Below are positions 41,759-51,077 of a stretch of 64,000 nucleotides of DNA, piece by piece; within the stretch, counting starts at the first letter, position 1; the number at the start of each line of letters is the position of its first letter. The stretch lies in the NCBI GenBank assembly GCA_017478025.1, contig JAFVGZ010000018.1:62001-126000 (forward strand). Reading direction: 5' to 3'. The notes beneath the pieces are model-generated. The model saw only the letters and a list, made by a program, of their open reading frames with translations. It ran no database searches and had not been told where the DNA came from. The DNA comes from Prevotella sp. (GTDB taxonomy: Bacteria; Bacteroidota; Bacteroidia; Bacteroidales; Bacteroidaceae). The translations under genes were made by a program, and so were the position numbers.

Positions 41759-42246
41759 GCAATATGTTCGGCAAAGCAATACAGTTTCTCAAAGAACATA
41801 AGGAGATTGCCCTCGCCACGTGTGAGGGCAATCTGCCTAAGTTGCGTGTCTTCCAGGTAATGAAGCAGGAGGGGCATGTACTTTATTTTGCCACCTCTGC
41901 CCATAAAGCTGTCTATAGGGAGTTACGTCATAACCCTAATGTGGAGATTATGGCGTACGCCGATAATGTCTCTGTCCGCTGCTCTGGGATGGTGAACTTT
42001 AACGTGGAGGACGATGTGAAACGCTGGATATATGACAATAACCCCGTGCTGCCTCGTCTCTACACCAGCTATGATCAGCTGGAGTATTTCTGTCTGCCTA
42101 TAGCGGCAATGGATTATTATGACCTGACGCCCACTCCCCCTGTCTTTGAGCATTTTGATCTTATAGCCGGTGAAGTGGAGCAGGGGTTTGTAGGTAACAG
42201 GTTTACGCCTGCTCCTCAAACACATACCCAAAGCCGGTGCGACTGA
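41752..42246 (+). CDS. Pyridoxamine 5'-phosphate oxidase-like flavin-binding protein
   Basis: This 164-residue split-barrel protein has FLKEHKEIALATCEGNLPKLRVFQVMKQEGHVLYFATSAHKAVYRELRHNPNVEIMAYA, the family FMN-binding pattern. SVRCSGMVNFNVEDDVKRWIYDNNPVLPRLY follows. It probably reduces or binds a small substrate with FMN; the substrate is unknown. It is translationally coupled to the cupin gene. Its last 44 nt overlap, on the opposite strand, the end of the Na/Pi transporter gene. Confidence 0.88.
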   Translation: MVSNMFGKAIQFLKEHKEIALATCEGNLPKLRVFQVMKQEGHVLYFATSAHKAVYRELRHNPNVEIMAYADNVSVRCSGMVNFNVEDDVKRWIYDNNPVLPRLYTSYDQLEYFCLPIAAMDYYDLTPTPPVFEHFDLIAGEVEQGFVGNRFTPAPQTHTQSRCD

Positions 42247-44167
42247 CAATGTTCTGAGCATACGGTCCCAGCTTCTTCCTCAGACGTGTGACGTTGACGT
42301 TTATGGTACGGTCTGTGACTATGACGCCTTGCCATATAGTATCCATCATTTGCTGGCGTGATACGACCTTACCCATGTTGGCCATCAGTTGGTGGAGCAG
42401 CGCGAACTCTGTGGGGGTAAGTTTCACGAGGATACCGTCAACGGTTATGCTCTTTTTCTCGGTGTTCAGGTGCAGGCCTTTGTACGCCAGCAGATGTTTA
42501 CCCAAACGTGCTTCAACGATGTTCATGACATAATCGCCTATCTTCTCGCAGTCCGCTATGATGTCATTGTAGAGCGTATAGAGCGCATAGGAATGCTGGT
42601 GTGAGTCGCTTTCTGTGATGGTCTCATGCCTTATCTGGTCTCTCAGTCCGTTGATGTCGCTCTCTATGGATTGCGAGTCGGCGAGTGAGAGGTCTTCGCG
42701 ACGTCCGCTCACCACGACATTCATCTGCACCAGAGCCTCGTTCACCAGTCGGAGCATGTCCTGCAGTCTGGCGTATTGCCCGGTTGTAAAGTCCTCCTTG
42801 TGTTCGCGCAGGTGCTTAACGGTGCGTGCTATCTTATAGCAGGCATCGCCGACTGACTCCAGTTCACCTATCTGTCTGAGCATCACGCGCGTCTTCTCCT
42901 TTGTGTCATCAGAGAGGTGCTCATTGCTCACCTGCTCCAGATAGTTCGCTATCTCTATCTCCATATTGTCGGCTATGGTCTCATAGTTCTCAATGCGAGC
43001 ATATTGACTCGCAAACTCCTTCTTGTCCTTTTCGTCTATGAGTGTGCACAGCATGCCAAACATGCGCAGCATACGCTCTGCAAAATGCACTATCTCCTTC
43101 TGTGCCTGCAGCACGGCAATCTCAGGTGTCTGTATCACGCCGCCGCTGATGAAGTGCAGCGTAGTGGGCAGCGTCACATCGTTCTTGTTTGCAGGCAGGA
43201 TGCGGCACACTATTCGCTCCATCTGGGGAATAAAGCCGATGAGCAGGGCCGTGTTGAGAATGTTAAAGCAGGTATGGAACATTGCCAGCACCACCGGTAT
43301 GCGTTCCGCCTGTCCTGTTGCCGCAGGGTCATATCCCACGATGCCGCACACCATATCCACGAAGGGATAGAACACACAGAGCACCCAGATGACGCCAAAG
43401 ACATTGAACAGCAGGTGTGCCAGGGCTGCCCGCCTTGCGTCAATGCCGGCACCCAGGGCTGCAAGATTGGCTGTTGCCGTAGTGCCGATATTCTCGCCCA
43501 TCACCAGGGCAATACCCATGTATATGGGCAGCACGCCGGTAGAGCAGAGCAGAATGGTAATAGCCATCACCGCTGCCGATGACTGCACGATGCAGGTGAT
43601 GATGGTGCCGGCAGCCAGGAAGGCCAGAATGGTGAAATAGCTGCCCGTATCAAATGAGGCAAAGAACTCGATGACATCGGGATTGTGTGCCAAATCCATA
43701 TCGCGCCCCACGCTGCTCAGCATGACGAGCGACCAAAAGAGGAACGCCAATCCAAAGAGGAAATCGCCTGCCACGCGGTGGCGCTTCTTGTATATGAGCA
43801 CCATACCGATGAGGAAGGCTGGGAACACCACTATGGTCAGGTCGATGTTGTAGCCCAGCGACATAATCCACGCCGTGAGGGTGGTGCCGATGTTGGCACC
43901 CATGATGACTGAGATAGCCTGTGCCAGTGTGAGCAGTCCTGCCGAGACGAATGATACCGTCATCACGGTCGTGGCCGATGACGACTGCACGGCACAGGTC
44001 AGCATTGTGCCTGTCAGCATGCCGCTCAGCCTGTTTCCTGTCATGCGGGCTAAGATGTGTCGCAAGCCTGGACCTGCCATTTTCTGCAGGGCATCACTCA
44101 TGGTCTTCATTCCATAGATGAGCAACGCCAGAGTGCCAAGTAGCTTGAAAAATAATTCGATAGTCAT
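42203..44167 (-). CDS. Na/Pi cotransporter fused to PhoU-like and OmpR-type DNA-binding domains
   Basis: At 654 residues, this protein has three parts. Residues about 1-320 are a Na+/phosphate cotransporter with two inverted-repeat signatures, VQSSSATTVMTVSFV near 60-75 and CIVQSSAAVMAITILL near 200. Residues about 335-550 are helical and PhoU-like (HFAERMLRMFGMLCTLIDEKD, RQIGELESVGDACYKIART, LVNEALVQMN). Residues about 564-654 are a winged-helix effector domain of OmpR/PhoB type (VKLTPTEFALLHQLMANMGKVVSRQQMMDTIW, RTINVNVTRLRKKLG, GFGYVFE). The first two parts are a known combination. The DNA-binding third is unusual and would make a transporter that reports directly to DNA. No frameshift or internal stop separates the parts. 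Confidence 0.9.
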   Translation of the reverse strand: MTIELFFKLLGTLALLIYGMKTMSDALQKMAGPGLRHILARMTGNRLSGMLTGTMLTCAVQSSSATTVMTVSFVSAGLLTLAQAISVIMGANIGTTLTAWIMSLGYNIDLTIVVFPAFLIGMVLIYKKRHRVAGDFLFGLAFLFWSLVMLSSVGRDMDLAHNPDVIEFFASFDTGSYFTILAFLAAGTIITCIVQSSAAVMAITILLCSTGVLPIYMGIALVMGENIGTTATANLAALGAGIDARRAALAHLLFNVFGVIWVLCVFYPFVDMVCGIVGYDPAATGQAERIPVVLAMFHTCFNILNTALLIGFIPQMERIVCRILPANKNDVTLPTTLHFISGGVIQTPEIAVLQAQKEIVHFAERMLRMFGMLCTLIDEKDKKEFASQYARIENYETIADNMEIEIANYLEQVSNEHLSDDTKEKTRVMLRQIGELESVGDACYKIARTVKHLREHKEDFTTGQYARLQDMLRLVNEALVQMNVVVSGRREDLSLADSQSIESDINGLRDQIRHETITESDSHQHSYALYTLYNDIIADCEKIGDYVMNIVEARLGKHLLAYKGLHLNTEKKSITVDGILVKLTPTEFALLHQLMANMGKVVSRQQMMDTIWQGVIVTDRTINVNVTRLRKKLGPYAQNIVSRTGFGYVFEEQA

Positions 44168-45037
44168 ATTAATAGCATTTTAATTGCGTTGCAAAGATAC
44201 ACAAACTTAACCAAACAGACTAATAAACTGGGTTACAATTCGGTTACGATTGCAGATATGGGAGCTGTAATCGTTGTTTTTTCCGTGGGTGTGTCTGTTT
44301 TATATTGATGTTTGTGGGATATTTGCAGGAAAAACAGGAGGCGATGTGTCCTCATGTCTCAGTTGTTAGTGATGCTGATAATGATGCCGGTTATTGTGAT
44401 GCTGATAATGATGTGTGTTATTATGATGGCTGATTGTGATGGCTGACGATTGCGACGTGAGATACGTCGCCTCCTGTGCTACAACATTTTGGGCGATAGG
44501 ACAAAAGTGACATTTATGCAGAAAATACATATTTATTCGTGCTCTACAGTCGATTATTTTCCACGACAAAATATATTTTTGCGTATATGCGCTAAAATGG
44601 CCGGTTTTGTAAAGTATTGTTATATAGGAGGTTAGTGTTTGGTGTATTAAAATTGGATTTTCTAAAGGGTAAAAATGGGACAATATAGCGGTATCAGAGG
44701 TGAATTTTTGGCCTGTCCGCGAGTAACTTTAAGGGTGTCGCGGAGTAACTTTAAGGGGGTAAAAGACCTACTTCGAGGGGGTTAAAGTTACTCGGGGACC
44801 CTGCGAAGGGTCATTTTGGCTCTCCTGGAAGTTTTTTAGCGATTTTTTAGAGGTTTTTTCATAGGGAGTTGATGCATAGTTATTCATAGGATTTATGCAA
44901 CAATTGGTCTTCTGCTATGACGATGTTCCGTAAGCCTATGGAAAGGTGATTTCTATGCTTTCTTTTTCGCAAACTGAGCCGTAAGATCAACAAAATGTGC
45001 TATTTTTCCGACTTGCAGATGTAAAAGAACACATTTT
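44168..45037. other. Long intergenic region before the AraC regulator
   Basis: About 870 bp without a credible gene. A low-complexity stretch of TGATGCTGATAATGATG-type repeats lies at 44366-44450; its reverse frame encodes only HYQHHNNRHH-like residues. Then come the AGTAACTTTA array at 44720-44797, T-rich tandem pieces (TTTTTTAG) near 44830-44865, and the AraC promoter at 45053-45082. Confidence 0.75.
44720..44797. repeat. GAGTAACTTTAAGG array with inverted unit
   Basis: Two direct units (GAGTAACTTTAAGGGTGTCG and GAGTAACTTTAAGGGGG), then GTAAAAGACCTACTTCGAGG, then the inverted form GTTAAAGTTACTCGGGG. Units are about 20-22 bp. The words GTAAAAGACCTACT and AGTAACTT link it to the arrays at 3311 and 14177. 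Confidence 0.85.
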
Positions 45038-48428: not shown

Positions 48429-49937
48429 ATGAAGAAGAGAAAATCTGAATGGACGATGATGGTCCGGGCGGTTATGCTCGGGATGCTGTTGTCGTTGCCT
48501 ATGGCCGGAGGTGCGCAACGGATGTTGACGCTCGACAGTTGCAGGGCAATGGCATTGAGAAACAACAAACAGATGGGTGTGGCGAGGATAAAGCAGGAGG
48601 TGAACACCAACCTGCGTAAGTCTGCGCGCACACAGTATCTGCCAAAGGTGAATGCGCTGGGCGGCTATGTGCTGATGAGCAGAGAGATGTCGCTCCTGAA
48701 TGATGACCAGAAGGCAGCTCTGCGGAATATGGGCACGAGTGCTACGGGCAAGTTGCAGGATGCATTGTCGCCGCTGATGTCTCATTTGCCATCTGCCACA
48801 CAGGACAAGATAGGCCAGGATCTGGGGCAGTTTGCAGGAGTGCTGAACCAAGTCGGAGCAGGCTTGGTGGATGGCTTCCGTACTGACACGCGCAATATGT
48901 TTGCGGGTGCGGTAACGGTGACCCAGCCCGTGTTTATGGGCGGTGCCATCGTGGCAGCCAACAAGATGGCTGACATCAACGAGCAGATAGCAGCAAACTC
49001 ATTGGAGATGAAGCGCCAGAACACCTTATATAATATAGAACAGGCATACTGGCAGGTAGTGTCGCTTAGGCATAAGCAGACACTCGCTGAGAGTTATGTG
49101 GCACTCGTCAGAAAGCTGAACGGCGATGTGCAGAAGATGATAGACCAAGGCGTGGCTACGAAAGGCGACGGCCTGAGCGTCAGCGTGAGAGTAAACGAGG
49201 CAGAGATGGCGCTGACACAGGTGACTGACGGGTTGGAACTCTCGAAGATGTTCCTGTGCCAGCTGTGCGGGCTGCCCGAGGATGAGCAGATCGTGCTGGC
49301 TGACGAAGAGCGTAAGGAACTCTTTACAGAGGCTCAGATAGCTGAGGGAGCCGGTGCGGTGATACCTGCCGATGCATCCATAGCCCTGGAGAACAGGCCT
49401 GAGCTGAAGGTGTTGCAGAACACGGTGGACCTGTCAAGCCAGGCCACAAACGCGCTGAAAGCCGGCAACATGCCACAGGTGCTGCTCACGGGAGGCTATG
49501 CCGTGACAAATCCGAACACCTTCAATGGCTTTGAGAAGAAGTTTGGAGGAGTATGGAACATGGCTGTCGTGGTGAGAGTGCCCGTGTGGAATTGGGGTGA
49601 CGTGAAGTACAAGGTGCGTGCCTCTAAGGGTACTACGGCAATGGCAAAGCTCGAGCTCGACGATGCACGCGAGATGGTGAACCTGCAAGTGCGTCAGAAT
49701 AACTTCAAGGTGAAGGAGGCGCAGAAGAAGCTCACGATGGCTCTGTCAAATGTTGCTAATGCTGAGGAGAACCTGCGCATGGCCAACCTTGCCTTCAAGG
49801 AGGGTACTGCATCGCACACCACCGTAATGGAGGCGCAGACAGCATGGAACCAGGCTCAGTCGCAGAAGATTGACGCGGAGATTGGTGTCAAGCTGAGTCA
49901 GGTAGAGCTGGAGAAGGCACTGGGTATCTTGGAGTGA
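48429..49937 (+). CDS. TolC-family outer-membrane efflux protein
   Basis: This 502-residue outer-membrane channel protein has a signal peptide ending near AGGAQ, then LTLDSCRAMALRNNKQMGVARIKQEVNTNLRKSARTQYLPKVNALGGY, the first coiled-coil half. The second half repeats the pattern (VAVVVRVPVWNWGDVKYKVRASKG, LAFKEGTASHTTVMEAQTAWNQAQSQKIDAEIGVKLSQVELEKALG). A region of about 50 residues after 95 (DALSPLMSHLPSATQDKIGQD) is larger than usual. It opens an export operon with HlyD and two permeases. A 126-bp heptanucleotide repeat separates it from hlyD. Confidence 0.93.
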   Translation: MKKRKSEWTMMVRAVMLGMLLSLPMAGGAQRMLTLDSCRAMALRNNKQMGVARIKQEVNTNLRKSARTQYLPKVNALGGYVLMSREMSLLNDDQKAALRNMGTSATGKLQDALSPLMSHLPSATQDKIGQDLGQFAGVLNQVGAGLVDGFRTDTRNMFAGAVTVTQPVFMGGAIVAANKMADINEQIAANSLEMKRQNTLYNIEQAYWQVVSLRHKQTLAESYVALVRKLNGDVQKMIDQGVATKGDGLSVSVRVNEAEMALTQVTDGLELSKMFLCQLCGLPEDEQIVLADEERKELFTEAQIAEGAGAVIPADASIALENRPELKVLQNTVDLSSQATNALKAGNMPQVLLTGGYAVTNPNTFNGFEKKFGGVWNMAVVVRVPVWNWGDVKYKVRASKGTTAMAKLELDDAREMVNLQVRQNNFKVKEAQKKLTMALSNVANAEENLRMANLAFKEGTASHTTVMEAQTAWNQAQSQKIDAEIGVKLSQVELEKALGILE

Positions 49938-49939
49938 GG

Positions 49940-50065
49940 ATTGACCATTGACCATTGAGGATTGACCATTGAGCATTGAGCATTGACCATTGAGCATTGA
50001 CCATTGAGCATTGAGCATTGAGCATTGACCATTGAGCATTGAGGATTGAGCATTGAGGATTGAGA
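49940..50065. repeat. Heptanucleotide array, 18 units of ATTGASS
   Basis: Eighteen consecutive 7-bp units (ATTGACC, ATTGAGC, ATTGAGG in mixed order) between tolC and hlyD. Such an array could gain or lose units and change the gene spacing. Confidence 0.95.
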
Positions 50066-50084
50066 ATTATAATTTAAGAGTATT

Positions 50085-51077
50085 ATGACAGATAAAGCAA
50101 AAGAACAGCATAACAATATCCTGCTAGCTGTGGCAGGGTTTTCGGCAGTAGTAGTTATCGTAGCTCTCATCGGTTTCCTGACCCTGGGCCGTGCCCCTGA
50201 GGTGATACAGGGCGAGATGGAAGTGGAGGAGTATCGCGTGTCGGGTAAGGTGCCCGGACGTATCCTTGAGCTCCGAGTGAAGGAGGGTGACTTTGTGAAG
50301 GCTGGTGATACGCTGGCTATCATCGAAGCTCCCGAGGTGGAGGCCAAGATGGTACAAGCCCGGAGTGCCGCCGATGCAGCCCAGGCAATGGAGCAGATGG
50401 CTCAGAACGGAGCCCGCAAGGAGCAGATACAGGCCGCCGCACAGCTCCTGGAGCAGGCAAAGGCAGGACTGGAGATAGCCGAGAAGTCATATAAGCGCAT
50501 GAAGTATCTCTATGAAGAGGAGGTGGTAAGTGCGCAGAAGTTTGATGAGGCTGAGGCTATGTACAAGTCGGCTCAGGCCCAGGTGAAGGCTGCGCAGAGC
50601 TCGTATGACATGGCTGTCAACGGTGCCCGCGCTGAGGAGCGCCGTGCCGCGTCAGCCACAGCGGGTCAGGCCCGCGGTGCCGTGCAGGAGGTGAACAGCT
50701 ACATACGTGAGACTGTGCAGGTGGCACAGATGGCAGGCGAGGTGACCGATGTATATCCAAAGGTGGGTGAGCTCGTAGGCACGGGTACGCCCATTATGAC
50801 CATCGCTGTGATGGAAGACCAGTGGGCTACGTTCAACATACGTGAGGATCTGTTGAAGAATGTCAAGGTGGGGCAGGAGATAACAGTACGTATCCCGGCA
50901 ATTGACAAAGAGGCCAAGATGAAGGTCACCTCGATGAAGGACAAGGGCTCATTTGCTGCATGGAAAGCTACGAAGGCCAGCGGTCAGTATGACCAGAAGA
51001 CCTTTGAGGTAAAGGCCCGTCCGATAGCAAAGATTGCAGATATCCGTCCGGGTATGTCTGTCATACTGGAGAAGTAA
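50085..51077 (+). CDS. HlyD-family periplasmic adaptor (membrane-fusion protein)
   Basis: The 330 residues start with an N-terminal membrane anchor (ILLAVAGFSAVVVIVALIGFL), then the biotinyl-lipoyl-like domain (YRVSGKVPGRILELRVKEGDFVKAGDTLAIIEAPEVEAKM). A helical hairpin about 85-200 rich in Ala/Gln/Glu follows, then the barrel domain (GEVTDVYPKVGELVGTGTPIMTIAVMEDQWATFNIRED). It would link inner-membrane permeases to TolC. It resembles E. coli YhiI/YbhG-type adaptors, which work with ABC-2 permeases like the two genes that follow. Confidence 0.93.
   Translation: MTDKAKEQHNNILLAVAGFSAVVVIVALIGFLTLGRAPEVIQGEMEVEEYRVSGKVPGRILELRVKEGDFVKAGDTLAIIEAPEVEAKMVQARSAADAAQAMEQMAQNGARKEQIQAAAQLLEQAKAGLEIAEKSYKRMKYLYEEEVVSAQKFDEAEAMYKSAQAQVKAAQSSYDMAVNGARAEERRAASATAGQARGAVQEVNSYIRETVQVAQMAGEVTDVYPKVGELVGTGTPIMTIAVMEDQWATFNIREDLLKNVKVGQEITVRIPAIDKEAKMKVTSMKDKGSFAAWKATKASGQYDQKTFEVKARPIAKIADIRPGMSVILEK

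Follow-up and report, generated by a model that had tools for sequence, protein, structure and literature searches.

Can a phosphate importer be the transcription factor of its own gene? This question is raised by one gene in a 64,000-nucleotide stretch of a Prevotella sp. genome (GenBank assembly GCA_017478025.1, contig JAFVGZ010000018.1, positions 62,001 to 126,000), here called the window. In one uninterrupted frame of 654 residues, the gene joins a sodium/phosphate (Na/Pi) cotransporter, a PhoU part and a winged-helix DNA-binding domain of the PhoB/OmpR type, as an earlier note on this DNA had read it. We think it probable, going by the sequences compared below, that the fused protein is a membrane-tethered, kinase-free, one-piece phosphate homeostat which controls its own gene. 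The earlier note had suggested a membrane-tethered transcription factor: the architecture, the missing receiver domain and the conservation are all borne out, and the idea itself gains support from the apparent descent of the gene, from the scarcity of PhoB and PhoR in genomes carrying it and from a repeat in its promoter. The parts of the gene, in window coordinates, are as follows.

42203..44167, minus strand: fused gene, 654 residues, Na/Pi cotransporter, PhoU and PhoB-type winged helix (single frame and Pfam matches); ATG at 44167, stop at 42203-42205
43163..44167, minus strand: membrane transporter part, about residues 1-335 (hydrophobic stretches solely between residues 1 and 313)
43967..43987, minus strand: QSSSATT signature, residues 61-67
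43571..43585, minus strand: QSSAA signature, residues 195-199
42500..43135, minus strand: PhoU part, about residues 345-556
42206..42499, minus strand: PhoB/OmpR-type winged-helix effector domain, residues 557-654, with a near-zero linker
42266..42310, minus strand: putative recognition helix RTINVNVTRLRKKLG, residues 620-634 (role assigned by analogy with PhoB)

Profile searches recovered all three parts. In Pfam, Na_Pi_cotrans (PF02690) matched over two stretches with an E-value (E) of 8.1e-54 and Trans_reg_C (PF00486), predicted earlier for the C-terminus, was found at residues 581-650 (E 3.7e-19), both over the gathering score, while PhoU matched at E 8.8e-8 (32.9 bits against a cut-off of 23.5). 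The NCBIfam model NF037997 (Na/Pi cotransporter) scored the protein at 185 bits against a cut-off of 50, and by profile and QSS motifs it is a member of the Na/Pi cotransporter family. For the C-terminus the best NCBIfam match was RespRegPhoBBctds (NF053854), in which residues 557-651 covered profile positions 130-225 only; this effector part reached E 5.9e-29 and 101 bits, below the cut-off of 270 that applies to the full length. The closest solved structures to the last 101 residues are those of the E. coli PhoB effector domain (1qqi, 3t72, 1gxp; E about 8e-12). No Response_reg match was obtained in Pfam up to E 1 and the receiver half of the PhoB profile remained uncovered, so that the protein has the effector domain of a PhoB response regulator and lacks its N-terminal receiver with the phospho-acceptor aspartate. 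The start of the effector domain had been put at about residue 564, which is slightly late: the join lies near residues 556-557.

In 33 aligned fused proteins, a hand-picked portion of the fused set, all three Pfam domains are present throughout (PhoU at E 0.001), and six of the seven positions of Q61SSSATT67 and all five of Q195SSAA199 are invariant. E-xxx-D motifs of PhoU bind metal; the PhoU part has three of them (396/400, 437/441, 541/545), with the E and the D invariant in the same alignment, as are R628, R630, K631, K632 and W612 of the winged helix (the divergent protein L164, described below, is not among the 33). Hydrophobic stretches end near residue 313 and the usual layout of the Na/Pi transporter family puts C-terminal parts on the cytoplasmic side; PhoU and the winged helix should therefore face the cytoplasm.

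We next consider how widespread the fusion is. Contigs of bacterial and archaeal genomes were scanned and gave 160 relatives, the best 80 of which were taken as related loci: 66 are fused (one cut by a contig end), 11 have separate adjacent transporter and response-regulator genes, and 3 have the transporter alone in the available stretch. The fused gene occurs in many rumen Prevotella-type bacteria, ruminant stomachs being named in many titles of these loci (titles were not counted); isolates or strains recognisable by title include Prevotella aff. ruminicola Tc2-24, Prevotella sp. khp7, P6B1, Xylanibacter ruminicola D31d and HUN156. Of 398 genomes from the genus, a query spanning the junction showed at least 38, one of them a single contig, to have the fused gene. 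Outside the genus the sole fused match at E 1e-24 or better was in genome G783 (393 genomes from the order, a few of the genus included). The two sources partly contain the same genomes and their loci overlap for this reason; promoter and tree counts below were made after removing identical sequences, with near-identical ones kept.

The unfused relatives suggest where the fusion came from. In these, the genes for NaPi-PhoU, PhoB (about 220-270 residues if translated from its first possible start) and a PhoR-like kinase (about 300 residues) stand in a row on the same strand. The PhoB-adjacent transporters end in NVV(E/Q)AR(F/L)G, or near it, followed by 1-3 residues; the fused protein runs on from the same point, usually after 1-2 residues, into the first strand of the PhoB effector domain, with the receiver and linker lost at the junction. 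The distance from ARLG to LTxTEF is 25-26 residues in 74 of 78 fused rows (near-duplicates included). These features support descent of the fused protein from a NaPi-PhoU/PhoB/PhoR gene set. The kinase itself has left little behind, as 74 stretches 3’ of fused genes gave one weak generic match only. Of the 14 PhoB-adjacent loci, 13 (L095-L100, L102-L104, L107, L108, L010, L013) have a gene for a short PhoR-like kinase after phoB; none was seen in the available stretch of L024. The two kinases that were scanned (L095 and L107) match just the C-terminal part of the PhoR model; in such loci, sensing may already have shifted to PhoU.

A tree of the transporter-PhoU part, built from 113 rows by a quick method, groups 68 fused rows in a single clade with a Shimodaira-Hasegawa-like approximate likelihood ratio support (SH-aLRT) of 98. 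Its sister comprises 13 PhoB-adjacent and 3 other transporters, and the union of the two has a support of 100. A second fused lineage, L105/L106/L109, is placed elsewhere in the tree, and an approximately unbiased (AU) test on 23 fused rows and 42 others rejected a single clade of all fused rows (p 0.006). It is therefore probable, barring an error of the model, that the fusion has two or more origins. Positions specific to fused proteins lie mostly within PhoU (9 of 11); since PhoU varies more in general, we give them no weight.

To see what else such genomes keep, we compared 38 fused with 42 unfused genomes, the latter chosen at 99-100% completeness, using E 1e-65 for PhoB, 1e-60 for PhoR and 1e-80 for PstB, or better. 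PhoB was found in 6 of 38 fused versus 28 of 42 unfused genomes and PhoR in the identical 6 and the identical 28 (p 4e-6), one of the six (G341) having a partial PhoB. Many of the 32 fused genomes in which neither was found at these thresholds are incomplete, and the difference is for this reason partly artefactual. What is firm is that some genomes with the fused gene, such as the single-contig G141, have neither PhoB nor PhoR at these thresholds. PstB was found in 3 of 38 fused and 7 of 42 unfused genomes. In the window’s own genome, G000, no PhoR was found at E 1e-40, although at 85% completeness a miss is possible.

Upstream of the gene, on its own strand, two promoter features were located.

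44231..44248, minus strand: Pho-box-like direct repeat CGTAACC-GAAT-TGTAACC, the sole exact match to YGTARCC-N4-YGTARCC in the window’s genome
44192..44199, minus strand: TATCTTTG, which we take to be of the Bacteroidota -7 element type, 32 bp after the 17-base box

Pho boxes are built as 11-bp direct repeats, and the consensus upstream of fused genes, AATYGTAACC(G/A)AATYGTAAYC, is a direct repeat with an 11-bp period. The invariance of GTA in both arms is uninformative because the search pattern required it; conservation extends, however, to positions on which the pattern put no demand, since of the 57 sites 57 have C after the first arm, 56 have AA in the spacer and 50 have C after the second arm. 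We then asked how often a box with at most one mismatch is followed 31-34 bp later by a -7 element (TAnnTTTG, one mismatch allowed), leaving out two fused rows with short upstream stretches. Promoters with this arrangement number 65 of 70 for fused genes, 13 of 14 for PhoB-adjacent transporters and 6 of 28 for other transporters. Box and element are 32 bp apart in each of the 13 PhoB-adjacent cases; of the 65 fused ones, 62 have a spacing of 32 or 33 bp. When the promoters were shuffled 30 times by dinucleotide and searched for the box alone, neither the fused nor the unlinked set gave any, and the PhoB-adjacent set gave 0.03 on average. The six box-bearing others, identified by exclusion, are L154 and L155, which converge on phoB-phoR genes, L098 and L103, which are second transporters in a locus with a PhoB-adjacent one, and L110 and L111, which belong to the PhoB-adjacent clade.

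Across the 80 genomes, 28 of the 38 fused ones contain a single copy of the strict 17-mer and the other 10 contain none; 4 of the 42 unfused ones have it, at 6 sites in total. The same pattern read backward occurs in 4 of 38 and 3 of 42. Of the 28 boxes in fused genomes, 26 lie upstream of the fused gene and on its strand; the estimated distance to the start is 64-74 bp for 24 of them and about 250 bp for two. The remaining two of the 28 (G341, G155) are on other contigs, the G341 site having no adjacent transporter. G219 also has a strict box about 90 bp in front of its phoB match. These counts indicate that the strict box has essentially one target, the fused gene itself. A wider regulon of the box was not found in the window’s genome, where a one-mismatch pattern gave 6 sites versus 17 for its backward control and a shorter pattern gave 5 versus 5. 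Two other repeats came up in these searches: contig G024:C1 has dozens of dispersed CGTAGCTANNACGTAGC-like sites, which are probably an unrelated interspersed repeat, and in several genomes (e.g. G209, G187, G010, G219) one and the same 17-mer, TGTAACACGTGTGTAGC, is present in several copies each.

Two lineages provide natural contrasts. The fused protein L164 (G417:C41) has lost the recognition-helix consensus, with SEEAVDAAISRLRNKI instead of the DRTVDVNITRLRKK type; its promoter box has decayed, and its genome, G417, has PhoB and PhoR. In the sister L166 (G400), for which no PhoB or PhoR was found, the helix is kept and the box is within one mismatch. Being a single lineage, this contrast is only suggestive. 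The independent lineage L105/L106/L109 has an intact helix and another conserved promoter stretch, GATATTAAGATTATGTTACAAT, which may be its own operator.

Together, these observations would fit the following mechanism. To a Na/Pi symporter that ends in PhoU, like those encoded beside phoB and phoR, a PhoB effector domain has become attached with hardly any linker. PhoU proteins connect a phosphate transporter with PhoR, whereas in the fused protein PhoU adjoins the very domain that would normally be under the control of PhoR and PhoB. Under phosphate scarcity, the winged helix would bind the promoter repeat as a tethered dimer and turn the gene on; activation is suggested because the box precedes the core promoter, as it does at the PhoB-adjacent transporters. 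When phosphate is plentiful, PhoU, through its metal- or phosphate-bound state or the state of transport, would keep the effector domain from binding by way of the short rigid junction, so that the state of PhoU would decide whether two effector domains can occupy the repeat. The usual chain of transporter, PhoU, PhoR, PhoB and DNA would thereby be shortened to transporter-PhoU-DNA within one polypeptide, a fused regulator whose main target is itself. If the nascent transporter enters the membrane close to the gene that encodes it, this could aid the tethered protein in finding that single site. The earlier note had phosphate or sodium flux being read directly; sensing of phosphate through PhoU is likelier, and nothing points specifically to sodium. 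A fuller account seems to us evenly poised between right and wrong: in it, a single polypeptide would serve as importer, as phosphate sensor and as a transcription factor bound to its own promoter while in the membrane, and such proteins would have evolved at least twice by deletion of the kinase and the receiver from the NaPi-PhoU/PhoB/PhoR set.

A number of observations weigh against this interpretation. Among genomes at least 97% complete, PhoB and PhoR are present in 4 of 11 fused versus 28 of 42 unfused genomes (p 0.09), and 14 of the 42 unfused genomes also have neither, so that loss of PhoB and PhoR does not require the fusion; with six fused genomes keeping both as well, we dismissed a strict coupling of fusion and loss. 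A tree of the effector domain needs three changes and nests the PhoB rows L097, L100, L102 and L104 in the fused clade, albeit with poor resolution; we relied on the transporter trees because the effector domain has too few columns. On the promoter side, the strict box is absent from 10 of 38 fused genomes, and the exact box precedes phoB itself in 3 of 11 other stretches (L151, L152, L162) and is missing from the other 8. Its frequency in the fused family is also partly circular, the box having been learnt there; more independent evidence comes from the PhoB-adjacent promoters and from the number of sites in other places. The winged helix has a higher median ratio of nonsynonymous to synonymous substitution rates than the rest of the protein (0.10 versus 0.06, with synonymous divergence near saturation), and the genome encodes further OmpR-family regulators with lower PhoB scores which might bind the box.

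The last two points are also what one would expect if the winged helix did not bind DNA at all and served as a structural or regulatory tail, for instance a dimerisation clamp on PhoU, with another regulator using the box; the retention of the fused protein in G417 despite the lost helix consensus speaks for this too. We nevertheless judge it unlikely, given the invariant arginines, lysines and tryptophan of the winged helix, the 32 fused genomes in which no PhoB was found and the joint decay of box and helix in L164. Release of the effector domain by proteolysis or internal initiation, to act as a soluble PhoB-like activator, strikes us as more doubtful still: regulated proteolysis is a known mode for membrane-bound regulators and codons usable as starts lie near the junction (ATG 548, TTG 555, GTG 581), yet the junction has a near-zero linker in 74 of 78 rows and the strict box shows no wider regulon, as expected of a tethered protein. 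Somewhat more plausible, while still improbable, is a self-repressor, in which high phosphate would let the tethered winged helix bind and silence the gene. Autorepression is a common design and would suit a mainly single self-target; the box, however, does not overlap the -7 element and lies upstream of the core promoter at the 32-bp spacing of PhoB-adjacent promoters, which by analogy with PhoB is the position of an activator. To an assembly or sequencing join of two adjacent genes we assign next to no weight. Such genes are indeed adjacent in near relatives, where the orthologues are split, as the earlier note had foreseen for a false join; these split forms, however, fall in a separate clade of the transporter tree and the fused form is a conserved, well-supported clade of its own. 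The whole receiver is gone, which is more than the loss of a stop codon, and the recurrence of the fused form in related loci from separate assemblies, isolates included, and in genomes of the genus rules out a join. The self-controlling homeostat thus remains the reading that we prefer.

The surroundings of the gene offer no functional link to it. On one side are genes for an HxlR regulator, a cupin and a PNPOx-type protein, and on the other an AraC-type regulator and a patatin, all functionally unrelated to the fused gene. The convergent PNPOx-type gene overlaps the 3’ end of the fused gene by 44 bases (42203-42246). Low-complexity tandem repeats occupy 49746-50347 and 44366-44683 of the window (open reading frames reading MLNGQCSMLN... 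and ending NNTHHYQHH...). Elsewhere in the genome, a second NaPi-PhoU gene (G000:C18:10035-11723; L002, L150) has neither winged helix nor box, and its product is 61% identical to the fused protein over residues 5-557. A PstB gene is on the fused gene’s own contig, about 100 kb away (G000:C31:4312-9074, L149), with neighbours which by eye resemble other Pst genes and a porin; no exact Pho-box-like site was found before these Pst genes, and scattered matches with one or two mismatches there were taken as chance.

How does the fused protein compare with systems already described? CbrA is an SLC5-type transporter fused to a histidine kinase and signals by phosphotransfer to CbrB; it resembles the fused protein in joining a transporter to a signalling module and differs in that, here, the DNA-binding domain itself is attached. 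Among NptA-type Na/Pi symporters, which likewise have transporter and PhoU in a single chain, the PhoU domain of S. aureus NptA acts as a modulator of PhoPR, most strongly in alkaline medium, where it represses PhoR, according to the main text of PMC13170248, which surveys these transporters across 926 genomes. NptA thus works via PhoR and PhoP, whereas the fused protein carries a PhoB effector domain within the chain and PhoR and PhoB are mostly not found; the words ‘fused’, ‘fusion’ and ‘DNA-binding’ do not occur in that main text. The effector domain fits the PhoB model of the Bacteroidota PhoB-PhoR pair (B. fragilis PhoB, PMC3547664; family entries NF053854 and NF053855), but the fused protein has no receiver or phosphorylation site, is tethered to a membrane transporter and usually comes without a detectable kinase. 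ToxR-like one-component regulators such as CadC and ToxR share a membrane-fixed winged helix and the absence of a phosphoryl acceptor; as described in PMC5936718, their winged helix is N-terminal and they have a single transmembrane helix with a periplasmic sensor, and CadC requires a separate transporter, LysP, for the lysine signal. The fused protein is a single chain with a C-terminal winged helix, many hydrophobic stretches and PhoU in between.

The transporter-PhoU pairing is thus already known, as the earlier note had said, and so are the PhoB-class domain and membrane one-component regulators; we found their combination nowhere described in the open-access literature searched, which likewise gave no description of the three-part protein, the receiver loss, the descent from the gene set or the self-directed operator. 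How PhoU relays phosphate status to gene expression is a long-standing question, usually approached through PhoR and PhoB. Since the fusion lacks both kinase and receiver, PhoU is left as the most plausible path to the PhoB effector domain, which would make PhoU signalling accessible on one protein and one promoter. If our interpretation is correct, these bacteria would possess a rare case of a transporter acting as the transcription factor of its own gene, with a predicted operator.

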